This document shows positions 4,741 to 51,131 of a DNA stretch of 64,000 nt, in pieces. This stretch comes from Delftia sp. PS-11 (lineage in GTDB: Bacteria; Pseudomonadota; Gammaproteobacteria; Burkholderiales; Burkholderiaceae_C), in NCBI RefSeq assembly GCF_029870285.1, contig NZ_JACSYA010000002.1, positions 186,001 to 250,000 on the forward strand, read 5' to 3'. The position numbers were made by a program, and so were the translations under genes. A model generated the notes under the pieces. That model saw only the letters and a program-made list of their open reading frames with translations. It made no database searches and was not told the DNA's origin. Within the stretch, counting starts at the first letter, position 1; the number at the start of each line of letters is the position of its first letter.

Positions 4741-7700
4741 TCGAGCGCCTCGTCAACCTCTGCTTCACGCGCCGCGGCGTGGTCTGGCTGGTCTTCGTCT
4801 TCGCGGCTCTGTACGGCGTTTTCAGCTGGAAGCAGCTGCCGCTGGAGGCCTATCCCGACATTGCCGACGTGACATCGCAGATCGTCACCCAGGTGCCGGG
4901 CCTTGCGGCCGAGGAGGTGGAGCAGCAGATCACCATCCCGCTGGAGCGTGCGCTGCTGGCCACGCCCGGCATGCATGTGCTGCGTTCGCGCAGCCTGTTC
5001 GCGCTGTCGCTGATCACCGTGGTCTTCGAGGACGGCGTCGATGGCTACTGGGCGCGCCAGCGCCTGAAGGAGCGCATGGACGAAGTGACGCTGCCCTATG
5101 GCGCGCGCGCCGGGCTCGATCCCTACAGCTCGCCCACGGGCGAGGTCTACCGCTATACGCTGGAGAGCCCCGTGCGCAGCCTGCGCGAGCTGTCCGAACT
5201 GCAGCGCTGGGTGGTGATACCACGCCTGAAGAAGGCGCAGTCCGTGGTGGACGTGACCAACTTCGGCGGCCTGACCACGCAGTTCATGCTGGAGCTTGAC
5301 CCCGCGCGCCTGCTGCAATACGGGCTGACGCTGCCCCAGGTGATCGATGCCATCAACGCCAACAATGCCAGCGGCGGCGGCAGCGTCATCGACCGGGGCG
5401 ATGTCTCCTATGTGGTGCGCGGCGTGGGCCTGCTGGGCTCGCTGGACGATATGGGCAACGTGGTCGTCAAGACCACGGACAGCGGCACGCCCGTGGTGGT
5501 CAAGGACCTGGGGCGCCTGACCTACGGCAACGTGGAGCGGCGCGGCATTCTGGGCAAGGACGGCAACTCCGACACCCTGCAGGGCATCGTGCTGCTGCTC
5601 AAGGGCTCCAATCCCTCGCAGGCGCTGGAGGGCATCCATGCCGCCGTCGAGGAGCTCAACAGCAAGCTGCTGCCCGCCGATGTCAAGGTCGTGCCCTATC
5701 TGGACCGCACCACGCTGATCGAGCGCACCACGCACACCGTGGGCAAGACCCTGGCCGAAGGCCTGATCGTCGTGACCCTGGTGCTGCTGGTCTTTCTGGG
5801 CAGCCCGCGCGCGGCGCTGATCGTGGCGCTGACCATTCCGATGGCGCTGCTGATGGCCTTCATCTTCATGCACCATGCCAGGATTCCGGCCAACCTGCTG
5901 TCGCTGGGCGCCATCGACTTCGGCATCCTCGTCGATGGCGCCGTGGTGGTGGTCGAGAACATCCTGCGCCGGCGCGAGGCCGAGCAGGACCGGCCCCTGA
6001 CGCCGCGCGACGCCATCACGGCCACGCTGCAGGTGGCGCGGCCCATCTTCTTCGGCATGTGCGTGATCGCGGCGGCCTACCTGCCGCTGTTCGCCTTCGA
6101 GCGCATCGAGTACAAGCTGTTCTCCCCGATGGCCAGTGCCGTGGGCGCGGCCCTGGTAGGCGCGCTGGCCGTGGCCCTGCTGCTCACGCCCGCGCTGGCG
6201 TGGCTGGCTTTCCGCCGGCCGCGCAAAATCTTCCACAACCCTGTGCTGCACCGGCTCAGCGAAGGCTATGACCGCTTCCTGGGCGCTGCCGTCGGGCGCA
6301 TGCGCTGGCTGGCGGGCGCGGTGGCGGCCTCGCTGCTGGCCCTGTTCGTGCTGGCGGGCACCATGGGGCGCGATTTTCTGCCCTATCTGGACGAAGGCTC
6401 CATCTGGCTGCAGGTGCAGATGCCTGCGGGCATCACCCTGGAAAAGGCGCGCGATATGGCCGATGCGCTGCGCAGTGCGGCGCTGGAGTTTCCCGAGGTC
6501 TCCTACATCGTCACCCAGACCGGCCGCAATGACGACGGCACCGACTACTGGACGCCTTCCCACATCGAGGCCAGCGTGGGCCTGCACCCCTATGACAGCT
6601 GGAAATCCGGGCTGACCAAGCAGCAGCTGATCGCAAAGATGGGGGCGCGCTTTGACCAGCTGCCCGGCTATACCGTGGGCTTCATGCAGCCCATGATCGA
6701 TGGCGTGCAGGACAAGCTGTCAGGCGCGCACAGCGACCTGACCGTGAAGGTCTTCGGTCAGGATCTGGCCGAAGACCGGCGCGTGGCCGATGCGCTCGTC
6801 GCCATCCTCGAAAAAGTGCCTGGCGCTGCCGATGTGGCCGTGGACGTGGAGCCGCCGCTGCCCAATCTGCGCATCGCCCTGGACCGCGCAGCCGCTGCGC
6901 GCTACGGCATCAATGCCGCCGACGTGGCGCAGCTGATCTCCACCGGGGTGGGGGGCGCCTCCATCGGCCAGCTCTACGTGGGTGAGCGCAGCTACGACAT
7001 GGCCGTGCGCTTCAAGCCCGAAACCCGTGGCAGCCCCGAGACCATCGGCGCACTGCGCCTGCCGGCTGCCAACGGCGCCCAGGTACCGCTGGCCGACGTG
7101 GCGCGCATCAGCACCACGGTGGGCCAGAGCGTGATCGTGCGCGAGGGCGGCGAGCGCCATATCCTGGTCAAGCTCAATGTGCGCGGGCGCGACCTGGCGG
7201 GCTTTTTGCAGGACGCGCACGCCGCACTCGATGCCCGGCTCGAATACGACCGCCAGAAGATCCATATCGAGTGGGGCGGCCAGTTCGAGAACCTGCAGCG
7301 CGCCGAGGCGCGGCTGCTGATGATCCTGCCGCTGACGCTGGGCATCATGCTGGTGCTGCTGTTCGGCGAGTTCGGCAATCTGCGCCAGCCGCTGCTGGTG
7401 CTGGGCGTGGTGCCGCTGGCCATGATCGGCGGCTTCGCGGGCCTGCACCTGCGCGGCATGACGCTCAATGTCTCCAGCGCCGTGGGTTTCATCGCGCTGT
7501 TTGGCGTGGCCGTTCTTTCGGGCGTGCTCATGGTCTCGCAGATCAACCGGCTGCGCCGCGAGGAGGGCATGGGCCTGCGCGAGGCGGTGCTCGAAGGCGC
7601 CTCCAGCCGGATGCGGCCCGTGCTGATGACCGCCACGGTCGCGGCCTTCGGCCTGACGCCCGCCATGCTGGCCACGGGCCTGGGCAGCGATGTGCAGCGG

Positions 7701-10381: not shown

Positions 10382-11012
10382 GCCGTACACCGACGAAGCT
10401 CCCGCTCTGGTCTATGTCGTCGATGACGATGCCTCGGTGCGTGCTGCCGTCGAGGATCTGCTCGCATCGGTGGGCCTGTGCGTGGCGGCCTTCGGCGCCA
10501 CGCGCGACTTTCTCGCGCACTTCGAAAGCAGCCCGCCCCAGGGGCCGGCCTGCCTGGTGCTGGACATCCGCATGCCCGGCCAAAGCGGCATGGATTTCCG
10601 CCGCCAGATGCTGGAGCAGGACCTGCGCCTGCCCACGATCTTTGTCACCGGCCATGGGGACATCCCCATGAGCGTGGAGGCCATGAAGACCGGCGCCATC
10701 GAATTCCTGACCAAGCCTTTCCGCGACCAGGACCTGCTCGATGCCATCCAGCAGGGCATCGCGCTGGACCGCCAGCGGCGCGAGCGCGATGCTGCCGGAC
10801 AGGCGCTGCGCGAGCGCTGGCAGTCCCTGTCGCGCGGCGAACAGGATGTGGTCATCGGCGTGGTGCGTGGCCAGCTCAACAAGCAGATTGCCGCCGACCT
10901 CGATGTCAGCGAAATCACGGTCAAGGTGCGCCGCGCCCAGGCCATGCGCAAGATGCAGGTGCGCACCCTGGCCGATCTGGTCAGGGCGCTGGAGCGGCTG
11001 GAAATCCGCTGA
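10374..11012 (+). CDS. FixJ-family response regulator (receiver plus LuxR-type HTH)
   Basis: A 212-residue partner of the preceding kinase. The receiver has 'YVVDDDASVR', the phospho-acceptor Asp64 in 'LVLDIRMPGQSG', a Thr in 'FVTGHGD' and Lys in 'FLTKPF'. The C-terminal LuxR-type HTH is 'LNKQIAADLDVSEITVKVRR'. The ATG at 10374 has GGAG 6-7 bases upstream and overlaps the kinase stop, so the two are co-translated. FixJ-type regulators activate promoters once phosphorylated. The targets are unknown; the adjacent RND operon is an obvious candidate. Confidence 0.85.
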   Translation: MAEPYTDEAPALVYVVDDDASVRAAVEDLLASVGLCVAAFGATRDFLAHFESSPPQGPACLVLDIRMPGQSGMDFRRQMLEQDLRLPTIFVTGHGDIPMSVEAMKTGAIEFLTKPFRDQDLLDAIQQGIALDRQRRERDAAGQALRERWQSLSRGEQDVVIGVVRGQLNKQIAADLDVSEITVKVRRAQAMRKMQVRTLADLVRALERLEIR

Positions 11013-11015
11013 GCC

Positions 11016-11552
11016 TCACAGCTGCCATGACGCCGGAATCAGCTGCAGGATCACGGACGTCATCACCAGATAGCGCAGGAACTTGCCGACGGCCATGTAG
11101 AACACGCAGGGCCAGAAGGGCAGCCGCATCCAGCCGGCCACCGCGCACAGCGGATCGCCCACCACAGGCAGCCAGCTCAGCAGGCAGGCCCTGGCGCCCA
11201 TGCGGCGCAGCCAGATGCGCGCGCGGCGCTCGTGGCGCGACAGGTGCCTGGCCGGGCGGGTCCGCGCATCGGCCGGCAGGCCGGCGCGCCGCCGCTCGCG
11301 CGCCGCATGCCAGGCCTTGCGCGCACCCAGGCCCATCCACCAGCTGATGGCGCCGCCCAGCGTATTGCCGGCAGTGGCCACGCCAATCGTCTGCCAGAAC
11401 AGTTCGGGCCGCAGCTGCAGCAGCCCGACCACGGCCGGCTCCGAGCCCAGCGGTAGCAGCGTGGCCGATACCAGGGCGATGACGAAGACCGTGCTCAGTC
11501 CGAATTGCGGCAGGGCCAGCCAGCCCAGCAGCTGATGCATCCAGATTTCCAT
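11016..11552 (-). CDS. YqaA-family (DedA/SNARE-associated-like) membrane protein
   Basis: A 178-residue inner-membrane protein. It has the 'SATLLPLGSEPAVVGLLQL' N-terminal re-entrant region, 'TAGNTLGGAISWWMGLGAR', a basic cytoplasmic insert and 'LSWLPVVGDPLCAVAGWMRL' followed by a final TM helix, a pattern shared with YqaA and the DedA/VTT superfamily. I chose the ATG at 11552. The open frame runs on upstream only because the minus strand of the (CAGCATCCG) repeat encodes a spurious M-L-R repeat. Its stop lies 3 bases from the stop of the convergent FixJ-like gene. VTT proteins are linked to lipid flipping and membrane homeostasis. Confidence 0.78.
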   Translation of the reverse strand: MEIWMHQLLGWLALPQFGLSTVFVIALVSATLLPLGSEPAVVGLLQLRPELFWQTIGVATAGNTLGGAISWWMGLGARKAWHAARERRRAGLPADARTRPARHLSRHERRARIWLRRMGARACLLSWLPVVGDPLCAVAGWMRLPFWPCVFYMAVGKFLRYLVMTSVILQLIPASWQL

Positions 11553-11657
11553 AGAGCCGCGTGTTGTGCAAGATGGCGCAAGTGTAGGTCTGCACCGGCT
11601 GACGCCTGGCCGTCCTGGCGCTATCTTGGGGTTTTGTTCCGTGCAAAGGATCGCAAC

Positions 11658-12200
11658 ATGGCGCAATGGCAGATGGGCAAATGGACGATGGCGCTGGCCA
11701 TCGCGGTGGCGCTGGCAGGCTGTGCTGCGCCGCAGCATCCGCAGCATCCGCAGCATCCGCAGCATCCGCAGCATCCGCAGCATCCGCAGCAAGCGGCAGA
11801 GCCCGCACAGTCCTGGGCGCAGGCTGGGCAGGACTGCGCGCCGCCATCCATCTCACTGTCCGACAGGATGGAGCTTTTGCAGCGCGAACTCGAACCCCTG
11901 GGGCTGCAGGCACGCATTGCCGGCTGCACCACCCCGCCGCAGCCGGCCCAGGGCGTGCAGGCGCTGCTGATCGACGCCTGGGTGCTCGATGGCCGCAAGG
12001 CCCGTGCCGTGGTGCGCGGCCCGTTGGCCGACGGTGAGCCGCTGGATCTGGGCCTGATGCCGACAGGCGCCAAGGCCCTGTCTGAGGAGGCAGTCTCGCC
12101 CGACGTGCGCTTCAACCGCCGCTGGTGGCATGAGCGCCTGCATGCCTATGGGCTCAGCGCCGTGGCGGGCCAGGTGCGCGTCTTCGTTCCTACACCATGA
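11658..12200 (+). CDS. Putative lipoprotein with a (QHP)6 repeat, unknown function
   Basis: A 180-residue protein with a lipoprotein signal, 'MALAIAVALAGCAAP'. Right after the lipobox comes a run of six Gln-His-Pro triplets encoded by a 9-base tandem repeat, then a globular domain of about 140 residues with two cysteines ('GQDCAPPS', 'IAGCTTPP') and the C-terminal segment 'FNRRWWHERLHAYGLSAV'. I do not recognise the family. The start at 11658 is the ATG that gives the signal peptide, with AAGGA about 8 bases upstream. It is divergent from the YqaA-type gene. The His-rich stretch near the membrane anchor could bind metal, but nothing else supports that. Confidence 0.65.
   Translation: MAQWQMGKWTMALAIAVALAGCAAPQHPQHPQHPQHPQHPQHPQQAAEPAQSWAQAGQDCAPPSISLSDRMELLQRELEPLGLQARIAGCTTPPQPAQGVQALLIDAWVLDGRKARAVVRGPLADGEPLDLGLMPTGAKALSEEAVSPDVRFNRRWWHERLHAYGLSAVAGQVRVFVPTP
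11733..11786 (+). repeat. Six perfect 9-base tandem repeats (CAGCATCCG)
   Basis: Six identical copies of CAGCATCCG, in frame, encode (QHP)6 just after the lipidated cysteine of the lipoprotein. A seventh, partial copy (CAGCAAGCG) follows. Because the unit is 9 bases, slippage would change the length without breaking the frame. Confidence 0.95.
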
Positions 12201-12351
12201 AACCGCCAGCCTGTCCGGCCGCCTTGGCTTGGCCGCCCCGGCGCACAGGTATTCGTGCTTTTTGTGCTGCTGAAAAATTGGGCAGGTACAATTCTGGTCC
12301 TTTGTTTGCCACCCATGCCGTGACCTGTGCATGGGCCAGCCAGCCCTATCC

Positions 12352-13422
12352 ATGTCCCGTCCGCCCCTGACCATCGGCCCCCATGCACTGGCCAACCGCC
12401 TGTTCGTCGCCCCCATGGCCGGGGTGACGGACCGGCCGTTCCGCCAGCTGTGCAAGGCCCTGGGCGCAGGCTACGCGGTCAGCGAGATGGTCACATCCCG
12501 CAAGGATCTGTGGAACAGCCTCAAGACCTCGCGCCGGGCCAACCATGAAGGCGAGCCCGGCCCCATCGCCGTGCAGATTGCGGGCACGGACGCCGCGATG
12601 ATGGCCGAAGCCGCGCGCTACAACGTGGACCGTGGCGCCCAGATCATCGACATCAACATGGGCTGCCCGGCCAAGAAGGTCTGCAACAAATGGGCCGGTT
12701 CGGCCCTGATGCAGAACGAGGCCCTGGCCGTGGAAATCGCCGAGGCCGTGGTCCAGGCCTGCGCGCCGCACGGCGTGCCCGTGACGCTGAAAATGCGCAC
12801 AGGCTGGTGCGAAGCGCACCGCAACGCCGTGGTGCTGGCCCGGCGCTTCGAGCAAGTGGGCATCCAGATGCTCACCGTCCATGGCCGCACGCGCGAGCAG
12901 GGCTACAAAGGCTTTGCCGAGTACGACACCATCGCGGCCGTCAAGGCGGCCGTGCGCGTGCCCGTGGTGGCCAACGGCGACATCACCAGCCCGGAAAAGG
13001 CGCGCGACGTGCTGGCCTATACCGGCGCCGATGCCATCATGATCGGCCGTGCGGCCCAGGGCCGGCCCTGGATCTTCCGTGAGATCGGCCACTTCCTGGC
13101 CACCGGCGAGCACATGGCGCCACCGCTGGTGGCCGAGCTGCGCCGGCTGCTGCTGGACCACCTGCAGGACCACTACCGCCTGTATGGCGAGGGCACGGGC
13201 GTGCGCAGCGCGCGCAAGCACATCGCCTGGTATGTGCGCAGCCTGCCGGGCGGCGAGCCATTGAGACAACACATCAACACTATCGAGGACTGCGCGGTGC
13301 AATGGCAGGCCGTTGCCGACTATCTGGATGCGCTGGGCAGCCAGATGGACCGGCTGCCGGCCGCCATCGGGACCGGCGCCACAGGCGCCGGTCTTGCACA
13401 GCCCGCAGGAATGACTGCATGA
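12352..13422 (+). CDS. dusB: tRNA-dihydrouridine synthase B
   Basis: A 356-residue FMN-dependent enzyme that reduces uridine to dihydrouridine in tRNA. Motifs are 'NRLFVAPMAGVTDRPFR' (FMN-binding N-terminus), 'DINMGCPAKKVCNKWAGSAL' (with the catalytic Cys), 'TLKMRTGW', 'TVHGRTREQGYKG' and 'ANGDI...GADAIMIGRAAQGRPW'. The start is uncertain: ATG 12331 would add seven residues and neither ATG has a clear ribosome-binding site; 12352 fits usual family length better. It overlaps fis by 4 bases. The dusB-fis pairing is conserved across proteobacteria. A TACAAT at 12287-12292 may be the -10 box. Confidence 0.93.
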   Translation: MSRPPLTIGPHALANRLFVAPMAGVTDRPFRQLCKALGAGYAVSEMVTSRKDLWNSLKTSRRANHEGEPGPIAVQIAGTDAAMMAEAARYNVDRGAQIIDINMGCPAKKVCNKWAGSALMQNEALAVEIAEAVVQACAPHGVPVTLKMRTGWCEAHRNAVVLARRFEQVGIQMLTVHGRTREQGYKGFAEYDTIAAVKAAVRVPVVANGDITSPEKARDVLAYTGADAIMIGRAAQGRPWIFREIGHFLATGEHMAPPLVAELRRLLLDHLQDHYRLYGEGTGVRSARKHIAWYVRSLPGGEPLRQHINTIEDCAVQWQAVADYLDALGSQMDRLPAAIGTGATGAGLAQPAGMTA

Positions 13423-13652
13423 GCAACCAGAACATCGAACAATGCGTGCGTGAAAGCCTGGAGGGGTATTTCCGCGATCTCGACGGCGAAAAGCCCAATG
13501 GCATGTACGACATGCTGATCCGCCTGGTCGAAAAGCCGCTGCTGGAAGTGGTGATGAGCCAGGCCGACAACAACCAGTCGCGCGCCGCCGACTGGCTGGG
13601 GCTCAACCGCAACACCCTGCGCAAGAAGCTGATCGAGCACCACATGCTCTGA
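13419..13652 (+). CDS. fis: Fis-family DNA-binding protein
   Basis: A 77-residue nucleoid-associated/regulatory protein. The C-terminal HTH '[21 protein letters not shown]' is the Fis motif, preceded by two helices ('[20 protein letters not shown]'). The ATG overlaps the dusB stop (ATGA), a sign of coupled translation. The short form is typical of beta-proteobacterial Fis. purH follows 82 bases later. Confidence 0.92.
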
Positions 13653-13734
13653 ACCACGCATACCCCACCCATGGCCGTGCAAGCCACTCCCGCCCGATGC
13701 GCGGCCTGTTTTTTCAAACTCCGTACTGACGCCC

Positions 13735-15342
13735 ATGAAAGCCCTGCTCTCCGTCTCTGACAAGACCGGTATCGTCGAATTCGCCCAAGGCCTGCACGCC
13801 CTGGGCATCCAACTGCTGTCCACCGGTGGCACCGCCAAGCTGCTGGCCGATGCCGGCCTGCCCGTGACCGAGGTGGCCGAAGTCACCCAGTTCCCCGAAA
13901 TGCTCGACGGCCGCGTCAAGACCCTGCACCCCAAGGTCCACGGCGGCCTGCTGGCGCGCCGCGAACTGCCGGCCCACATGGCCGCGCTCAAGGAGCATGG
14001 CATCGAGACCATCGACCTGCTGGTCGTGAACCTGTACCCATTCGAGGCCACCGTGGCCAAGGCCGGCTGCACGCTGGCCGACGCCATCGAGAACATCGAC
14101 ATCGGCGGCCCGGCCATGGTGCGCTCTGCGGCCAAGAACTGGGCCGATGTGGGCGTGGTCACCGACGCCGGCCAGTACGAGGCCGTGCTGGGCGAGCTCA
14201 AGTCCCAGGGCAAGCTCTCCGACAAGCTGCGTTTTTCCCTGTCCGTAGCCGCCTTCAACCGCATCGCCCAGTACGACGGCGCCATCAGCGACTACCTGTC
14301 CAGCGTGAAGTTCGAGGACGACAAGCTGTCCGAAGACTATGTGCCCGAGCGCAGCCTGTTCCCCGGCCAGAGCAACGGCCAGTTCATCAAGGTGCAGGAC
14401 CTGCGCTACGGCGAAAACAGCCACCAGCAGGCGGCCCTGTACCGTGACCTGCATCCTGCCCCCGGCTCCCTGGTCACGGGCGAGCAACTGCAGGGCAAGG
14501 AGCTGTCCTACAACAACATTGCCGATGCCGACGCGGCCTGGGAATGCGTCAAGAGCTTCGAGCTGCCCGCCTGCGTGATCGTCAAGCACGCCAACCCCTG
14601 CGGCGTGGCCGTGGGCAAGGATGCGCACGAGGCCTATGCCAAGGCCTTCCAGACCGATCCCACCAGCGCCTTCGGCGGCATCATCGCCTTCAACCGCACG
14701 GTGGACAAGGCGGCTGCCGAGGCCGTGGTCAAGCAGTTCGTCGAAGTGCTCATGGCCCCCGACTTCACGCCCGAAGCGCTGGAAATCTTCAAGCCCAAGG
14801 TCAATGTGCGCCTGATGAAGATCGCGCTGCCGAACACCACGGCTGCGTCCGCCACCGCCTGGGAGCAGGGCCGCAACGCAGTGGACACCAAGCGCGTGGG
14901 CTCGGGCCTGCTGCTGCAGACCGCCGACAACCATGAGCTGGCCCTGGCCGACCTCAAGGTCGTCACCGTCAAGCAGCCCACGCCCGAGGAACTGCAGGAC
15001 CTGCTGTTCGCCTGGAAGGTTGCCAAGTACGTCAAGAGCAATGCCATCGTGTTCTGCAAGAACGGCATGACCATGGGCGTGGGCGCAGGCCAGATGAGCC
15101 GCCTGGATTCGGCGCGCATCGCCTCCATCAAGGCCGAAGCCGCCAAGCTCAGCCTGCAGGGCACGGTCGTGGCCAGCGACGCCTTCTTCCCGTTCCGTGA
15201 CGGCCTGGATGTGGTCGTCGATGCCGGCGCCACCTGCGTGGCCCAGCCCGGCGGATCCATGCGCGACCAGGAAGTCATCGACGCCGCCAACGAGCGCGGC
15301 GTCGCCATGGTCTTCACGGGCGTGCGCCACTTCCGCCACTGA
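13735..15342 (+). CDS. purH: Bifunctional AICAR transformylase / IMP cyclohydrolase
   Basis: A 535-residue enzyme that performs the last two steps of de novo IMP synthesis. The N-terminal cyclohydrolase (MGS-like) domain opens with '[18 protein letters not shown]' and has '[18 protein letters not shown]'. The transformylase part has '[16 protein letters not shown]', '[12 protein letters not shown]', '[14 protein letters not shown]' and '[20 protein letters not shown]'. Length and motifs are complete. It follows dusB-fis in the order common to Burkholderiales. Confidence 0.96.
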
Positions 15343-43431: not shown

Positions 43432-44970
43432 ATGAACAACATTCTGTCCACCCCCCGCCGTCTGGTCCTGGCCCTGGTGGCCGCAGGTGCCATCGGCGCC
43501 CTGGGCGCCACGGGCGCCGGTCTGGTTGGCGCAGTCCACGGCGATGCGCGTGCGACCACGGCGCTGGCGGCGCCTGCGGCCCAGCCCGCCTCGCAGTTCT
43601 CGCCGGCAGGCGCCGTCGCGGCGCCCAACTTTGCCGACATCACGGCGCGCAATGGCGCGGCCGTGGTCAATATCAGCGTGGTCGGCAGTGCGCGCGCCAT
43701 GGGCGAGGAGGGCGAAGAGGCTGCTGCGCGCCAGGGCCAGCAGGGCGTGCCCGGCATGGACCCCAGCGATCCTTTCTATGAATTCTTCCGCCGCTTCGGT
43801 GTGCCCGGCATGCCGGGGGCGGGCCAGCCCCAGCGCGATACGCCGGTGCGCGGCGAAGGCTCTGGCTTCATTGTCTCCAGCGATGGCCTGATCCTGACCA
43901 ATGCGCATGTGGTGCGCGGCGCTCGGGAAGTTACCGTCAAACTCAATGATCGGCGCGAATTCAGCGCCAAGGTGCTAGGCGCGGACCCCAAGACCGATGT
44001 GGCCGTGCTGCGCATCAACGCCAGAGACCTGCCCACCGTCACGCTGGGCAAGACCGCCGATCTGCGCGTGGGCGACTGGGTACTGGCCATCGGCTCGCCC
44101 TTTGGCTTCGAGAGCAGCGTCACGGCTGGCGTGGTCAGCGCCAAGGGCCGCAGCCTGCCCGAGGATTCCTTCGTCCCCTTCCTGCAGACCGATGTGGCCA
44201 TCAATCCGGGCAACTCCGGCGGGCCGCTGTTCAACGCGCGTGGCGAGGTCATCGGCATCAACAGCCAGATCTACACCCGCTCGGGTGGTTACCAGGGCGT
44301 GTCCTTCGCCATTCCCATCGAGGTCGCCACGCATGTGCAGCAGCAGATCGTGGCCACCGGCAAGGCGCAGCATGCCCGGCTGGGCGTGGCGGTGCAGGAG
44401 GTCAATCAGGCGTTTGCCGACTCCTTCAAGCTGGACCGGCCCGAAGGCGCTCTGGTGGCCAGCGTGGACAAGAACGGCCCTGCCGCCAAGGCGGGTCTGG
44501 AGCCTGGCGATGTGGTGCGCAGGATCGACGGCCAGCCCATCATCGGCTCGGGCGATCTGCCGGCCTATGTAGGCCAGGCACTGCCGGGCCAGAAGGTCAC
44601 GCTGGAGGTCTGGCGCAATGGCGAGGCCCGCACGCTGTCTGCCGTGCTGGGGGATGCGGGCGACAAGACCGCCAAGGTGGCCCAGGATACGCCCGATGCA
44701 GGCAAGGGCCGGCTGGGCCTGGCCTTGCGGCCCCTGCAGCCCGACGAAAAGCAGCAGGTCGGCGTGCAGGCCGGCATGGTCGTGGCCGATGCGGCCGGGC
44801 CTGCCGCCGAAGCGGGCATCGCCCAGGGCGATGTGCTGCTGTCCATCAACGGCGCGCCTGCCGCTGACATCCAGGCCGTGCGTGCGGCCATGGACAAGGC
44901 TGGCAAGACTGTCGCCGTGCTGATCTGGCGCGATGGCAACCGGATTTTCGTGCCCGTGCGTCTGGGCTGA
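43432..44970 (+). CDS. DegP/HtrA (Do)-family periplasmic serine protease
   Basis: A 512-residue protease with an N-terminal signal or anchor (about residues 10-35), the trypsin-like domain with catalytic triad His159 ('LTNAHVV'), Asp189 ('KTDVAVL') and Ser262 ('NPGNSGGPLF'), and two PDZ domains (about 305-395 and 420-505). The Q-linker 'GEEGEEAAARQGQQGVPGMD' precedes the 'DPFYEFFRRFG' LA loop. It degrades misfolded envelope proteins. GAGGAAAGG lies about 9 bases upstream. The DegP/MucD distinction cannot be made safely here. Confidence 0.93.
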   Translation: MNNILSTPRRLVLALVAAGAIGALGATGAGLVGAVHGDARATTALAAPAAQPASQFSPAGAVAAPNFADITARNGAAVVNISVVGSARAMGEEGEEAAARQGQQGVPGMDPSDPFYEFFRRFGVPGMPGAGQPQRDTPVRGEGSGFIVSSDGLILTNAHVVRGAREVTVKLNDRREFSAKVLGADPKTDVAVLRINARDLPTVTLGKTADLRVGDWVLAIGSPFGFESSVTAGVVSAKGRSLPEDSFVPFLQTDVAINPGNSGGPLFNARGEVIGINSQIYTRSGGYQGVSFAIPIEVATHVQQQIVATGKAQHARLGVAVQEVNQAFADSFKLDRPEGALVASVDKNGPAAKAGLEPGDVVRRIDGQPIIGSGDLPAYVGQALPGQKVTLEVWRNGEARTLSAVLGDAGDKTAKVAQDTPDAGKGRLGLALRPLQPDEKQQVGVQAGMVVADAAGPAAEAGIAQGDVLLSINGAPAADIQAVRAAMDKAGKTVAVLIWRDGNRIFVPVRLG

Positions 44971-45297: not shown

Positions 45298-45702
45298 ATG
45301 AGCTTGGAAAACACTCTGGGGCAAATAGTGGGCACCGTGCCCGAATGCGTGGCCATCGGATATGTCGATGCTGCCTCGGGAATGCTGCTGGGCATGCGCA
45401 CGGTGGATTCCCACCCGCGCGAGGTGATTGATCTGGTGGCTGCTGCCACAGCCGACCTGTTCAACGGCCCGAATGTGTCGATGATCGAAAGCCTGTTCAA
45501 AAGGGCCAGGGGCCTGCAAAGCGATGGGCACCACTACTTTCAGGAGCTGATTGTCAACAGCGACAACCTGATCCATGTGTTTTTGCGTGGCAAGCAGACT
45601 CCCGACTACATTGCCGTCTTTGTGTGCCGCCGCACCGCCAATCTGGGCATGGCGTTGACCAAGGCGCGCATGGCAATGCCCCAGATCGAAGCGGCCGTCT
45701 GA
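45298..45702 (+). CDS. Roadblock/LC7-like protein, copy 1
   Basis: A 134-residue soluble protein. The order of strands and helices ('ECVAIGYVDAASGMLLGMRT', helix 'VIDLVAAATADLFNG', strand 'LIVNSDNLIHVFLRG', strand 'YIAVFVCRRTANLGM', final helix) fits a Roadblock/LC7 domain, the fold of MglB-type partners of small GTPases. This assignment is from pattern, not a search. AAAAGGGAG lies 7-8 bases before the ATG. An 88%-identical paralogue lies at 47474-47878, and an ABC ATPase/phosphatase fusion lies between. No small GTPase gene is visible nearby. Confidence 0.72.
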   Translation: MSLENTLGQIVGTVPECVAIGYVDAASGMLLGMRTVDSHPREVIDLVAAATADLFNGPNVSMIESLFKRARGLQSDGHHYFQELIVNSDNLIHVFLRGKQTPDYIAVFVCRRTANLGMALTKARMAMPQIEAAV

Positions 45703-45961
45703 TGGCATGGCGCTATGGCTCTGGCCGCGCCGTGGCGATCGCATTCCGGGCTGCAAACACCCGCCGCAATGTGGCCTTGGAAGCTATTCGAGACGGCTTA
45801 CGTTAAAGCAACACCCATTTGCGATAGTAGTGTTTCTTTTTGTGACGATTTGATCTAGGGCAAACCGCTTAGACTGCCGGCCCGTCAAGCCTGCGCTGGC
45901 TGTCTCGGGTTCACCCATGAACAAGCGGTCCTGGAGGGCCACATATCGCATCACAGGAGGC

Positions 45962-47440
45962 ATGGCATTGAAGCACGACTACAGCTTGCAGGTGGCAGGT
46001 TTGGGCGCCTCGTTTGGTGCGCGCGTCATTCTGGCAGAGGCGGATTTCACGCTGCCTGCGCGTGGCATCACGGCGCTGCTGGGGCCTTCCGGATCGGGCA
46101 AGTCCACGCTGCTGCGCACGCTGGCCGATCTCAATGCCGCCAATCCGCGTTTTCGCCGCTGGGGCAGTGTGCGCTATGCGGGCCAGCCGTGGAGCCGTGG
46201 CATGCCTGCGCCGCGCCTGGTGCAGCAGCAGGCCCGGCTGATGCTGGCCAGCACCTTCGACGCCATCGTGGAGCTGGCCAGGCCCCGGCTCAAGCTGGTG
46301 CCGCATGCGCTGCGGGACTGGTGCCAGGAACAGCTGCAGGCCTTCGGCTTTCCGGAGCTTGGGTCGGTGCTGGACCGGCCTGCACTGGAGCTGTCTGCCG
46401 TGCAGCAGCGTGCCGTGGCGATATTGCGCGAGGCGCTGGCCGAGCCCGCCCTGCTGATGGTGGATGAGCCCACGGCGGAGTTGCAGGGCTACGATGCCTT
46501 TGTGCTGCTGGAGTTGCTGAGCCAGGTGGCCCAGCGCACGGCCGTGCTGATGAGTACGCACCAGCAGCAGCATGCCCAGGCCGTGGCGCAGGACATGCTG
46601 CTGCTCGCAGGGGGCCGCATTGCCGAGGCGCAGTCCATGGAGGCTTTCTTGCATGCGCCGCTGTCGCTGGCAGGCCAGCAATTCGTGCGCACCGGCAGCT
46701 GCTGCGTGCCTTCCCCGGATGCACGGGCCGAGGACCTGGAGGAGGGCATGCCTTTGCCGCCCCCCCTGCCAGCAGCGGCGCTGGCGGCCATCTCTGAATT
46801 CCAGGCAGACGGGCAGGCTTCGCAGGCCTTGGCCGCTTCGCCTGCCGCACCCGCCATGCCAGAGCCTGTGGCAACCCCTGCCGCTGCGCCGCTGCCGCGT
46901 CCTGTCAAGCCTGCCGTGCTCGCGGACTGGGCGCCGCTGGCCGCCGATCCCCAGGCCGTGCCCGCCAGCCGTGGCCCCGGCGGCTTCGCCTGGCTGGTGC
47001 CTGGCCGGCTGGCAGGCACGCCCCTGCCCGGCGTCGTGCATTCCGTGGATACCGATCTGCAGGCGCTGCGCCGCTGCGGCGTCACCATGCTGATCACCCT
47101 GACCGAGAAAGACCTGCCCCAGGAGCCTCTGCTGCGCCACGGCCTGCGCAATCTGTACCTGCCGGTGCGCGACCAGGAGCCGCCCACGGTGGCGCAGATC
47201 CAGATGCTGCTGGCACGCATGTCGGCCATGCTGCGCGCCGGCGAAGTGCTGGCCGTGCATTGCCTGGCGGGGCTGGGGCGCACAGGCACGGTGCTGGCCG
47301 CCTGGCTGGTGCGTGAGGGCCTCACCGCCCAGGAAGCGCTGCGGCGCGTGCGCCTGATCGATGCCCAGTATGTGCAGTCGCAGGCACAGGAAGACTTGCT
47401 TCACGCCTACGAGGCAGCCTTGCTGCAGAAGATGGGCTGA
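45962..47440 (+). CDS. PstB-like ABC ATPase fused to a dual-specificity/tyrosine phosphatase
   Basis: About 492 residues. N-terminal ATPase (about 1-230): Walker A 'GPSGSGKSTLL' (41-49), Q-loop region 'VQQQARLMLAS', degenerate signature 'ELSAVQQRAVAIL' in place of LSGGQ, Walker B 'LLMVDEPTA' (Asp168, Glu169) and H-loop 'STHQQQH'. A Pro/Ala linker follows (about 245-330). The C-terminal phosphatase has the P-loop 'VHCLAGLGRTGTVLAAW' (Cys434, Arg440) and a likely acid Asp in 'LPVRDQEPPT'. No membrane segments. Start uncertain: AGGAGG (45955-45960) is 1 base from ATG 45962 but 7 bases from an in-frame TTG 45968; ATG 45917 is also possible. I know of no described system with this fusion. Confidence 0.85.
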   Translation: MALKHDYSLQVAGLGASFGARVILAEADFTLPARGITALLGPSGSGKSTLLRTLADLNAANPRFRRWGSVRYAGQPWSRGMPAPRLVQQQARLMLASTFDAIVELARPRLKLVPHALRDWCQEQLQAFGFPELGSVLDRPALELSAVQQRAVAILREALAEPALLMVDEPTAELQGYDAFVLLELLSQVAQRTAVLMSTHQQQHAQAVAQDMLLLAGGRIAEAQSMEAFLHAPLSLAGQQFVRTGSCCVPSPDARAEDLEEGMPLPPPLPAAALAAISEFQADGQASQALAASPAAPAMPEPVATPAAAPLPRPVKPAVLADWAPLAADPQAVPASRGPGGFAWLVPGRLAGTPLPGVVHSVDTDLQALRRCGVTMLITLTEKDLPQEPLLRHGLRNLYLPVRDQEPPTVAQIQMLLARMSAMLRAGEVLAVHCLAGLGRTGTVLAAWLVREGLTAQEALRRVRLIDAQYVQSQAQEDLLHAYEAALLQKMG

Positions 47441-47473
47441 CCGGATATTTCAAAACTACAAAGGAAAGTATCG

Positions 47474-47878
47474 ATGAGTTTGGACAACGTTCTGAGCGAA
47501 GTGGTGGGCTCGGTGCCCGAGTGCCTGGCCATTGGCTATGTGGATGCGGCCTCCGGCATGCTGCTGGCCATGCGCACCGTGGACTCCCATCCGCGCGAGG
47601 TCATCGACCTCGTGGCGGCTGCCACTGCCGACCTGTTCAACGGACCGAATGTGTCCATGATCGAACGCCTGTTCAAGAAGTCGCGCGGCCTGCAGGACGA
47701 TGGCCACCATTACTTCCAGGAGATGATCGTCAACAGCGACAACCTGATCCATGTTTTCCTGCGCGGCAAGCAGATGCCGGACTATGTGGCGGTTTTCGTC
47801 TGCCGCCGCACGGCCAATCTGGGCATGGCGCTGACCAAGGCGCGCATGGCGATGCCAAAAATCGAGGCGGCGGTGTAA
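47474..47878 (+). CDS. Roadblock/LC7-like protein, copy 2
   Basis: A 134-residue paralogue of copy 1, with 118 of 134 residues identical. The differences cluster in the first 18 residues and at scattered surface-like sites. The DNA differs at many third positions, so the copies are not a recent duplication and the protein is under strong constraint. It begins 33 bases after the ATPase/phosphatase stop, preceded by AAAGGAAA, and ends 34 bases before the OmpR-type regulator. Co-transcription with both is likely. Confidence 0.72.
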   Translation: MSLDNVLSEVVGSVPECLAIGYVDAASGMLLAMRTVDSHPREVIDLVAAATADLFNGPNVSMIERLFKKSRGLQDDGHHYFQEMIVNSDNLIHVFLRGKQMPDYVAVFVCRRTANLGMALTKARMAMPKIEAAV

Positions 47879-47912: not shown

Positions 47913-48587
47913 ATGCGGTTATTGCTGGTTGAAGACGATGCCATGATCGGCGAGGCCGTGCACACGCTGCTGCGCGGCGAAGGCCATGTGGTGGACTGGG
48001 TGCGCGATGGCCTGCAGGCCGATGCAGCCCTGCGCGCAGGCCCCGGGCAGGGCCATGGCTATGACCTGGTGCTGCTGGACCTGGGCCTGCCGGGGCAGGA
48101 CGGGCTGCAGGTGCTGCGCCAGCTGCGTGCGCGCCGCGACCGCACGCCGGTGCTGGTGGCCACGGCCCGCGATGCCGTGCGCGACCGCATTGCCGGCCTG
48201 GATGCCGGGGCGGACGACTACGTGGTCAAGCCCTACGACCTGGACGAGCTGCTCGCTCGGCTGCGCGCGCTGGCGCGCCGCGCATCAGGTGCCGTGGAGC
48301 CGCTGTACGAGCGCGGCGGCGTGCGCCTGAACCCCGCCACGCGCGAGGCCAGTGTCGATGGCTGCGGTGTCGTGCTGTCCGGCCGCGAGTGGGCGGTGCT
48401 GCAGGCGCTGCTGGCGCGGCCCGGCAGCACGCTGTCGCGCCAGCAGATCGAGGACAAACTCTATGGCTGGGGCGACGAGGTCAGCAGCAACGCCATCGAG
48501 GTCTACATTCATGGCCTGCGCAAGAAGCTGGGTGCCGGGCTGATCCTCAATGTGCGCGGCGTGGGCTACATGGTGCCCAAGCCATGA
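47913..48587 (+). CDS. OmpR-family response regulator (QseB/PmrA-like)
   Basis: A 224-residue regulator. The receiver has 'LLVEDDAMIGEAVHTLL', phospho-Asp in 'LVLLDLGLPGQDG', 'VATARDAVRDRIAGLDAGADDY' and Lys in 'VVKPYDLDELLAR'. The winged-helix output domain has 'LSGREWAVLQALLARPG' and 'SSNAIEVYIHGLRKKLG', ending 'NVRGVGYMVPK'. The kinase ATG overlaps its stop (ATGA). It is the likely transcriptional output of the following sensor, whose targets are unknown; the roadblock cassette directly upstream is one candidate. Confidence 0.9.
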   Translation: MRLLLVEDDAMIGEAVHTLLRGEGHVVDWVRDGLQADAALRAGPGQGHGYDLVLLDLGLPGQDGLQVLRQLRARRDRTPVLVATARDAVRDRIAGLDAGADDYVVKPYDLDELLARLRALARRASGAVEPLYERGGVRLNPATREASVDGCGVVLSGREWAVLQALLARPGSTLSRQQIEDKLYGWGDEVSSNAIEVYIHGLRKKLGAGLILNVRGVGYMVPKP

Positions 48588-49984
48588 AGGCCCTGCCTGA
48601 CCGACTGGCCTCCTGGATGCGCGAGCGCCTGCCCGGGGCCCTGGGGGCAAGGCTGCTGCTGTTCATTGGCGCTGCCATCGTGTTCACGGCCCTGCTGCAG
48701 GGGCTGCTGACCTACCGCAACGCCCTGCTGCAGACCGATATTCTGTTTGACTACCAGATGCAGCAGACCGCTTTCGCGCTGCGTGCCGGGCTGCCGGTGG
48801 ATGCGCGCGGCCATCCCGAAGGCACGCCCCCCGAGGATGAAAACCATGACTTCATCGTCCAGGTCTGGACCAATGAAGGGCTGCGCATCTTCGAGTCGGC
48901 CCTGGGCGCGGCCCTGCCGCAGATGGCCGTGCTGGGCTTTGCCGATGTGCCTGCGCGCGGCACGGTCTACCGCGTGTTTTCGCTGCAGACACGCTCCCAG
49001 GTGATCCAGGTCGCCCAGGACATGCGCGTGCGCCGCGCGCTGGCGCGCGATGCCGCATGGCATGGCCTGCTGCCGATTGCGCTGCTGGCCCCCGTGCTGG
49101 CGCTGGCGGTCTGGTGGGGTGTGCGCCATTCGCTGGCGCCCGTGCAGCGCGTGCGCCGCGAGCTGGCCGTGCGCCAGCCCACCGATCTGGCGCCCGTGCC
49201 CGCCGATGGCCTGCCAGACGAAGTGCGCCCGCTGGTGGCCGAGTTCAATGCGCTGCTGCAGCGCGTGGCACAGGCCTTCGAGGCCCAGCAGCATTTCGTG
49301 GCCGATGCCGCGCATGAGCTGCGCTCTCCGCTGGCTGCCTTGAATCTTCAGCTGCAGACCTTGCGCCGCGCACCGGACGATGCAGCCCGTGAAGACGCCG
49401 TGCAGCGCCTGGCCCAGGGGCTGGAGCGCGCCACGCGCCTGGTCGAGCAATTGCTGGCACTGGCGCGGCAGGAAGCCCGGCAGGCGGCTGCACAGACGCT
49501 GCCCCTGGTGGATCTGGGCGATGTCGTCACCCAGGCCCTTGCCGACACGGCGGTGGCCGCGCAGCAGCGCGGCCTGGACATGGGCATCAGCGAGTCGCCC
49601 GCGCTGCAGCAGCCGTTTGCCGTGCCCGGCGATGCCCATGCCCTGCAGATGCTGGTGCGCAACCTGCTCGACAACGCCATCAAGTATGTGCCCGAGGGCG
49701 GCCGCGTCGATGTGGGCTGGCGCAGCGATGCGGCAGGCCGGGCCCTGATCGTGGAAGACTCGGGGCCCGGTATTCCCCAGGAGCAGCGCCCGCAGGTGCT
49801 GCGGCGCTTCGTGCGGGGACCGTCCGCCAGCCAGCAGGCCGGCGGCAGCGGCCTGGGCCTGGCCATCGTGCAGACCATTGCCGAACGCCATGGCGCCCGC
49901 CTGCTGCTGGACCGCTCCCCCTCGCTGGCGGGGCTGCGGGTGCAGATTGTCTGGCAGGCGGCTGTCACTGTAGCAGGCGAATAA
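48584..49984 (+). CDS. Sensor histidine kinase (QseC/PmrB-like)
   Basis: A 466-residue kinase with TM1 (about 20-42), a periplasmic domain of about 110 residues that includes the acidic 'PPEDENHD', TM2 (about 160-180), a HAMP linker, H-box 'FVADAAHELRSPLAAL', N-box 'NLLDNAIKYVPEGG', G1 'VEDSGPGIPQEQR' and G2 'GGSGLGLAIVQTIAERHG'. The ATG at 48584 overlaps the regulator stop. The acidic periplasmic patch might sense cations, as in PmrB, but this is only a suggestion. Confidence 0.9.
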   Translation: MKALPDRLASWMRERLPGALGARLLLFIGAAIVFTALLQGLLTYRNALLQTDILFDYQMQQTAFALRAGLPVDARGHPEGTPPEDENHDFIVQVWTNEGLRIFESALGAALPQMAVLGFADVPARGTVYRVFSLQTRSQVIQVAQDMRVRRALARDAAWHGLLPIALLAPVLALAVWWGVRHSLAPVQRVRRELAVRQPTDLAPVPADGLPDEVRPLVAEFNALLQRVAQAFEAQQHFVADAAHELRSPLAALNLQLQTLRRAPDDAAREDAVQRLAQGLERATRLVEQLLALARQEARQAAAQTLPLVDLGDVVTQALADTAVAAQQRGLDMGISESPALQQPFAVPGDAHALQMLVRNLLDNAIKYVPEGGRVDVGWRSDAAGRALIVEDSGPGIPQEQRPQVLRRFVRGPSASQQAGGSGLGLAIVQTIAERHGARLLLDRSPSLAGLRVQIVWQAAVTVAGE

Positions 49985-50099: not shown

Positions 50100-51131
50100 A
50101 TGGAGTCCGTTGTTCAGCGCCTGTCCCAGTCCCTGGCCCAGGCGCAATCGCTGGAAGAACTCACGCGCCCGATGCTGCAGATGCTGGAGGAAGCCACGCA
50201 GCTGGCCTCTACCTACCTGACCACGGTCGATGAGGCAAAGGGTGTCCAGCAGGTGCTGTTCGCGCGCAATGCGCAGCAGATGCAGATTCCCGAAGGTCTG
50301 GTCGTCCCCTGGGGCGATACGCTGTGCAAACGGGCCATTGACGAGGGCCGCATGTACACGCCCGATGTCGGCCAGTGCTGGGGTGACTCCGAAGCCGCGC
50401 GCGAGCTGGGCATACGCACCTATGCGAGTGCGCCTGTGCGCTTTTCCGATGGCCGGCTCTACGGCACGCTGTGTGCCGCCAGCGACAAGCCCATGCCCGT
50501 GGGCCTGGAAGCGCAAAGCATGCTGAGCCTGTTTGCCAAGATACTTTCCGAGCGCCTGGAGCGCGAGCAGCTCATCGTCACGCTGAAGCAGCGCAACCAG
50601 GAACTGGCGGCCATGGCCCTGCTCGACCCGCTCACAGGCGTGCCCAACCGCCGCTGCCTGACCGAAGAGCTGCAGCGCCTGATCGCCCGGTGCGCGCGCA
50701 GCCAGGAGTGGGTGGTGGTCGGCTTCGTGGACATGGACCATTTCAAGCGGGTCAACGACGTATATGGCCATGATGCTGGCGATGCGCTGCTGTGCGCGAT
50801 GAGCGAGCGGCTGACTGCCAGCGTGCGCAGCAGTGACATGCTGGCGCGTTTCGGCGGTGACGAGTTCGTGCTCATCGGCGTCGGGCCGCTGCTCGGCGAC
50901 GATGCTGACGCGGTTGCGTGCGACCTGCAGCAGCGCCTGACGGCCGCATCGGCATTCCAGCTCGACCTGCCCGATGGCCGCTCGCTGGACTACAGCGGCG
51001 CCAGTGTCGGCGTGGTGTGCCTGCGCGCCGATGCCACAGATGCCGGCGATGCCCTGCAAAAAGCCGACGCCGCCATGTACCGCGTGAAGCTGGCGCGCAC
51101 AGGCGCCAAGGGGCAGTCGGCCCTGCACTGA
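50100..51131 (+). CDS. Diguanylate cyclase with N-terminal GAF domain
   Basis: A 343-residue cytoplasmic enzyme that makes cyclic di-GMP. The GAF-type sensor occupies about 1-165 ('PWGDTLCKRAIDEGRMYT', 'ASAPVRFSDGRLYGTLCA'). A short coiled coil leads to the GGDEF domain: 'DPLTGVPNRRCLTEEL', 'FVDMDHFKRVNDVYGHDAGD' and the active loop 'RFGGDEFVLIG'. The catalytic residues are intact. The typical inhibitory RxxD site 5 residues before GGDEF is not seen. The start at 50100 has AGAGG about 9 bases upstream. It could connect to the pilus and signalling genes nearby. Confidence 0.9.
   Translation: MESVVQRLSQSLAQAQSLEELTRPMLQMLEEATQLASTYLTTVDEAKGVQQVLFARNAQQMQIPEGLVVPWGDTLCKRAIDEGRMYTPDVGQCWGDSEAARELGIRTYASAPVRFSDGRLYGTLCAASDKPMPVGLEAQSMLSLFAKILSERLEREQLIVTLKQRNQELAAMALLDPLTGVPNRRCLTEELQRLIARCARSQEWVVVGFVDMDHFKRVNDVYGHDAGDALLCAMSERLTASVRSSDMLARFGGDEFVLIGVGPLLGDDADAVACDLQQRLTAASAFQLDLPDGRSLDYSGASVGVVCLRADATDAGDALQKADAAMYRVKLARTGAKGQSALH

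Follow-up and report, generated by a model that had tools for sequence, protein, structure and literature searches.

Bacterial Roadblock proteins are known chiefly for regulating MglA-like GTPases. What does such a protein do at a locus where an enzyme of another kind lies beside it? The question is raised by a stretch of 64,000 nucleotides of Delftia sp. PS-11 (contig NZ_JACSYA010000002.1, positions 186,001 to 250,000; the window in what follows), in which two genes for small proteins of predicted Roadblock fold (Rb; RbA upstream, RbB downstream) flank a gene for an ABC-type ATPase joined to a phosphatase (the fusion). An original prediction, made from the sequence alone, had described two closely similar 134-residue proteins flanking an ATPase-phosphatase gene, all in one direction. 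This layout was confirmed by the coordinates, by the identity of 118 out of 134 residues between RbA and RbB and by the Pfam domains, and the prediction was also right that no small GTPase adjoins these genes. The genes and the domains of the fusion (in amino acids, aa) are as follows.

45298..45702, forward strand: RbA, predicted Roadblock-fold protein of 134 aa, the upstream and extra copy
45917..47440, forward strand: fusion of ABC-type ATPase and DSP-type phosphatase, 507 aa as read (507 codons)
45980..46696, forward strand: ABC nucleotide-binding domain of the fusion, aa ~22-260
46697..46972, forward strand: linker of the fusion, containing a low-confidence Pro/Ala-rich stretch
46973..47437, forward strand: Cys-based DSP/PTP phosphatase domain of the fusion, aa ~353-507, assigned from sequence
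47474..47878, forward strand: RbB, predicted Roadblock-fold protein of 134 aa

The start of the fusion is uncertain, with ATG 45962 or TTG 45968, right behind AGGAGG in our own reading, as alternatives.

The answer that we favour, at slightly better than even confidence, is a conserved two-protein unit in which dimeric Rb is the dedicated partner of a soluble ABC-type nucleotide-binding/Cys-based phosphatase enzyme. Its occurrence was assessed in 53 genomes of the genus, 200 of the family and 398 of the phylum, and in the 80 best of 293 related loci from a pattern scan of named genomes; below, L numbers denote the stretch around one locus and G numbers one genome. In the genus, Rb was found in 32 of 53 genomes and a fusion match in the same 32, although G028, whose incomplete assembly is split into many pieces, showed only the ABC half, on a different contig. 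The two genes are 37-192 bp apart (median 54; 31 tabulated pairs from 30 genomes). The family sample gave 16 genomes with a strong Rb match, 16 with the fusion and 15 with both (Fisher p 1.7e-20, uncorrected for descent), so the pairing is not due to chance. The fusion count is 16 and not 17 because G169, with a match to the ABC part only, was excluded, and seven Rb-like matches that were weak, with E values from 8.8e-4 to 8.3e-3, and lay in long reading frames were left out.

The original prediction had proposed a survey of gene neighbourhoods, and in the 80 loci the fusion was indeed kept next to Rb across genera and families. It lies beside Rb in 72 of them, on the same strand in all 72 and with a median gap of 60 bp. 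The order is fusion-Rb in 55 loci and Rb-fusion in 17. The eight without a readable fusion comprise five with a cut part of it (L107, L112, L136, L147, L162), two in which Rb lies at the end of a contig (L090, L149) and L144 with no fusion; in L093 and L161 the fusion is split across two reading frames. Burkholderiales and other beta-type families, Stenotrophomonas and other Gammaproteobacteria and metagenome-assembled genomes (MAGs) of Myxococcales carry the pair. In the phylum sample, where scoring was limited to the top three candidates of each genome, 58 genomes matched the fusion profile at 1e-40, 54 of them in the ABC part only, and all four full-length matches have Rb adjoining. Plasmids contained no fusion at E 1e-40 and five distant Rb matches from Ruegeria; viral contigs gave three weak single-domain matches.

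The arrangement of the window, with an Rb on either side of the fusion, is not the unit itself. The prediction had taken the three genes as one cassette, but this sandwich was rejected as the conserved unit since it occurs in a single one of the 32 Rb-positive genomes of the genus; the unit is one Rb and the fusion, in either order. In G041, another genome of the genus, Rb occurs at two separate sites, each copy accompanied by a fusion of its own, and tandem Rb genes were seen in the Nitrosomonadales loci L150 and L161. RbA and RbB share 83% of their bases, and with a nonsynonymous divergence (dN) of 0.072 against a synonymous divergence (dS) of 0.83 both copies look constrained as proteins. 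In a tree of 64 Rb rows, 45 of them from the 80 loci, RbB groups, at 96% identity, with the Rb that Delftia carries as a single copy, and RbA groups weakly (89/82) with the Rb of Comamonas composti.

Is Rb a Roadblock protein? The predicted fold, a model only, matches solved Roadblock structures, and in structure alignments Rb is 22-24% identical to MglC. Sequence profiles were silent: Pfam, including PF03259 Robl_LC7, gave no match for RbA or RbB up to a limit of E 10 with the HMMER filters on, NCBIfam gave none at E<1, and no Roadblock entry was among the weak matches of a PDB sequence search (best E 0.59 and 0.078). Membership of the Roadblock fold, as originally predicted for the 134-residue proteins, is therefore supported by structure prediction and is invisible by sequence. 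MglB is recognised by the coupling of its gene to mglA, and in the window no GTPase gene stands beside Rb.

The fusion was matched in Pfam by ABC_tran (3e-16), PTP-SAK (2.6e-20), Tc-R-P (7.5e-20) and DSPc (1.4e-8), and residue conservation was counted over 30 aligned relatives. Gly-Lys-Ser of Walker A and Asp-Glu of Walker B, with the catalytic Glu, are present in 30 of 30 and the switch His in 29, while the ABC signature is lost, with the LSGGQ glycines in 0 of 30. The phosphatase loop HCxxGxGRTG, which contains the HCx5R[ST] pattern, is invariant (30/30), as is Asp419 (30/30), probably the general acid to judge from its invariance and position. The linker has a pLDDT (the confidence score of the predicted structure) below 50 at aa 313-316 and 318-342 and is preceded by a conserved F[VL]RTGSC-like motif (aa 256-262). 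A label as a defence system was dropped, as the PADLOC matches were confined to the ATPase part. A Myxococcales MAG (L157, 6325-9903) encodes a fusion with two ABC stretches before the phosphatase, in an open frame of 1192 aa whose start is uncertain.

A more distant group of Rb proteins lies near another type of phosphatase. A phylum search with the Rb profile was positive in 35 of 398 genomes, 27 of which belong to one family (f39) of another class. Out of 42 listed places 17 stretches were fetched by choice, two with a near-type Rb (accompanied by the fusion in L229 and by a GTPase but no fusion in L230) and 15 with a distant Rb. A branch with 100/100 support separates the 12 distant rows in the Rb tree from the other 52. 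Eleven of the 15 distant loci contain a gene of about 510 aa with a calcineurin-like phosphoesterase domain; Pfam was checked in two (L223 3e-15, L225 8e-12), all 11 align, and their profile matched PDB entry 3rqz at 8e-55. This metallophosphoesterase gene is the direct neighbour of Rb in nine loci, one gene lies between in L232, and in L220 it is about 5 kb away. Its N-terminal part has an invariant K54, D146, N151 and D163-D165, an order of motifs (K, D, N, DDD) that in our reading suggests a kinase-like domain; a PDB sequence search with this domain gave no match. Among the 15 distant loci the GTPase profile described below matched in nine (in L224 a cut fragment of 86 aa) and a Robl_LC7-type profile in 11. 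As this sister clade lies near a calcineurin-type phosphatase, the association of Roadblock protein and phosphatase recurs with two unrelated folds.

In the proposed unit Rb would form a homodimer, or in the window possibly an RbA-RbB heterodimer. The dimer would bind the nucleotide-binding domain and gate the phosphatase, which would strip phosphate from a protein partner; every step from binding onward is an inference. In species with an MglA-like GTPase, Rb might take up input from the nucleotide state of that GTPase or from its MglB partner. A GTPase cassette or a globin could be added as input, and in the lineage of the window the GTPase cassette may be encoded elsewhere or take no part. 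A wider proposition is advanced tentatively, at somewhat less than even confidence. Roadblock proteins may couple nucleotide state to protein dephosphorylation in a module built on at least two occasions around unrelated phosphatases, a DSP-type enzyme on a signature-less ABC ATPase and a calcineurin-type enzyme behind a domain with kinase-like motifs. In some lineages both would be connected to a heme-globin sensor and to a cassette with a Ras-like GTPase, giving a GTPase-Roadblock-phosphatase relay.

An alternative that we consider unlikely is a reduced MglA/MglB-type polarity module, with Rb as an MglC/MglB-like regulator of a Group-3 MglA encoded in trans and the ABC-phosphatase as an accessory output, by which a polarity protein would be reset after phosphorylation. 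The resemblance to MglC in structure alignments fits this proposal, as do 12 of the 80 loci, in which a small GTPase lies close to the pair, directly upstream of the fusion and behind a gene for a domain of unknown function (DUF) in 11 and about 4.6 kb after Rb in L149. Ten of these 12 loci also have a Robl_LC7-like gene (checked in Pfam for L146, 2e-14). In the GTPase alignment GxGK[ST]T of the G1 P-loop, PGQ of G3 and the Asp and Arg (D-x-R) of G5 are present in all 15 rows, and G4 is without NKxD in 14, the exception being NKFD in L142. According to part of PMC4316618, MglA proteins of Groups 2 and 3 have a G4 deviating from [NT]KxD and D-x-R in G5, and Group 3, in beta/gamma-Proteobacteria, combines MglA with one or two MglB and a conserved protein of unknown function. 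By these motif criteria the neighbouring GTPases and that of the Delftia genome itself would be of the Group-3 MglA type.

The Delftia sp. PS-11 genome has its own such cassette on another contig (C23; L170, 7209-9211), in the order DUF, GTPase, Robl_LC7 protein (Pfam 1.5e-7) and a protein of 119 aa. The DUF has a weak C-terminal winged-helix match below the cut-off, and the 119-aa protein, which gives weak cross-matches with Rb relatives, may in our reading be Roadblock-like. With this cassette and the 12 loci that have a GTPase close to the pair, the proposal in the original prediction that the ATPase simply takes the place of a GTPase was not supported. In the genus the GTPase was found in 29 of 53 genomes, all 29 within the 32 Rb-positive ones and none among the 21 Rb-negative genomes, although the pattern is not corrected for descent by a tree and may reflect one clade. 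In the family sample it was found in 25 of 200 genomes, which include nine of the 16 with Rb, and was missing from the other seven.

The polarity proposal is weakened by genomes that have the pair without a nearby GTPase. From the 68 loci of this kind 36 genomes were chosen by hand, several of them MAGs and possibly incomplete, while the genome of L163, whose GTPase adjoins the pair, was excluded. A GTPase match was found in 14, including a 40-residue fragment in G269, and none in 22. As these 22 have no such GTPase, the pair can stand alone and the GTPase is optional, and an obligatory GTPase in trans was rejected despite the overlap of 29 out of 29 in the genus.

A redox- or gas-responsive unit, with a ferredoxin-(flavin reductase)-globin protein as input and Rb and the ATPase-phosphatase as output, appears improbable. 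Nineteen of the 80 loci have a ferredoxin-globin gene close to the pair, in some cases with flavin-reductase domains; in L146, L150, L164 and others a ferredoxin-(FAD/NAD reductase)-truncated globin gene follows Rb at about 1 kb. The globin domain was confirmed in 11 of 11 proteins tested, and a globin gene is also present in L220, of the metallophosphatase type. Against this, ferredoxin/globin was undetected in 61 of 80 loci, some of them cut by contig ends, and among the scanned window genes (43.4-51.1 kb) there was none, the remaining window and the genome not having been searched for a globin gene. Very improbable is a role in transport, with the ATPase (PstB-like by score) as nucleotide-binding subunit of an importer and phosphatase and Rb as its regulators, as the LSGGQ glycines are lost and no permease was among the examined clusters recurring by the pair in at least 5 of 80 loci. 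Those examined encode GTPase, DUF, Robl_LC7 and ferredoxin-globin proteins, annotation covered part of the clusters, and a permease might be encoded in trans.

Several observations weigh against the two-protein unit and its extension to the sister clade. That the genes adjoin does not show that their products bind. In the family sample G173 has Rb without the fusion and G118 the fusion without any Rb match. Rb copies with no phosphatase nearby were found in L144, L186 (G173), L187 and L188, and in Ruegeria, Rb relatives with 34-37% identity share their neighbourhood with four genes of the dynamin family and a protein kinase. The 22 genomes with the pair and no GTPase indicate that GTPase input is not general. 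In the sister clade four of the 15 fetched loci have no phosphatase gene, and the metallophosphoesterase gene is convergent with Rb in eight of the nine loci where the two are direct neighbours, so it is not co-transcribed with Rb there.

The genes around these solitary copies are diverse. In L144, from a Gallionella MAG with other pairs (L138, L143), Rb lies beside two cyanophycin-synthetase-like genes (10452-15243 for the whole group), and in L186 by an oxidoreductase and an MlaE permease. In L187, the second copy of G070, no long gene lies directly behind Rb; the second copy of G178 (L188, 5982-12130) is an extra Rb between two autotransporter genes. Dynamins were rejected as partners of Rb copies without a fusion, since the neighbours in these four loci are other genes. 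The Ruegeria homologues (L191 and L192, both 7001-7402; NZ_CP065362.1 and NZ_CP081104.1) are annotated as hypothetical proteins, and the solitary fusion of G118 is found in L184 (7858-9033).

Behind RbB, the window continues with a response regulator that begins 34 bp past the end of RbB, with a histidine kinase and then with a gene for a GAF-GGDEF protein, in agreement with the kinase pair and GGDEF gene named in the original prediction.

47913..48587, forward strand: OmpR-type response regulator, local synteny, outside the conserved unit
48584..49984, forward strand: histidine kinase, start read as ATG 48584, local synteny only
50100..51131, forward strand: GAF-GGDEF protein, start read as ATG 50100, local synteny only

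Their proposed role as output of the module was not upheld. A response regulator and histidine kinase follow Rb in 15 of the 80 loci and GGDEF in 13, all from Delftia, Comamonas, Diaphorobacter, Acidovorax or one Burkholderiaceae MAG, and as a conserved output they were rejected as restricted local synteny. Weaker matches to both regulator and kinase lie about 6-7 kb before Rb in L118. Upstream in the window (43432-44970) lies a gene for a Do-family (DegP/HtrA) serine protease. Twelve of the 80 loci, from Delftia, Comamonas and a single Burkholderiaceae MAG, have it at the same place; L109 and L113 carry it between Rb and the response regulator and histidine kinase genes.

The conserved pair of Rb and fusion points to a little-known signalling unit, in some species with a Ras-like GTPase. 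If this is true, Roadblock proteins also control dephosphorylation, beyond MglA-like GTPases, and the pair offers a simple two-protein system in which such control is testable in vitro. No report on Rb with an ATPase-phosphatase was found in open-access titles and the beginnings of abstracts, subscription papers being outside this scope. In Snodgrassella, as given in part of PMC11112851, mutation of an orphan Roadblock gene in a Group 3 mgl system was inferred to alter type IV pilus motility, which shows that proteins of this sort can have a role in such bacteria, though that gene is a different one from Rb.

Among known systems, the phosphatase domain resembles the DSP-type phosphatases PTP-SAK (PF22784) and Tc-R-P (PF22785), scoring above both cut-offs, and differs in being fused behind an ABC domain, and the Pfam matches include no toxin domain next to it. 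Unlike MglB and MglC of Myxococcus xanthus, as presented in part of PMC7949163, Rb has no adjacent mglA and no Pfam Robl_LC7 match, and its neighbour is the ATPase-phosphatase. The Group 3 MglA systems share with the loci studied here the Roadblock proteins, a GTPase with Group 2/3 motifs, a DUF and one or two Roadblock genes; the part of PMC4316618 used here names no ABC ATPase-phosphatase partner for them, and 68 of the 80 loci here are without a nearby GTPase. The actinobacterial conservons CvnABCD (parts of PMC4316618 and PMC13343842) likewise place a Roadblock protein in a small conserved signalling operon, and some relatives of the present pair have an MglA-type GTPase as well. In contrast to CvnABCD with its histidine kinase-CvnC set, the conserved unit described here carries an ATPase-phosphatase instead.
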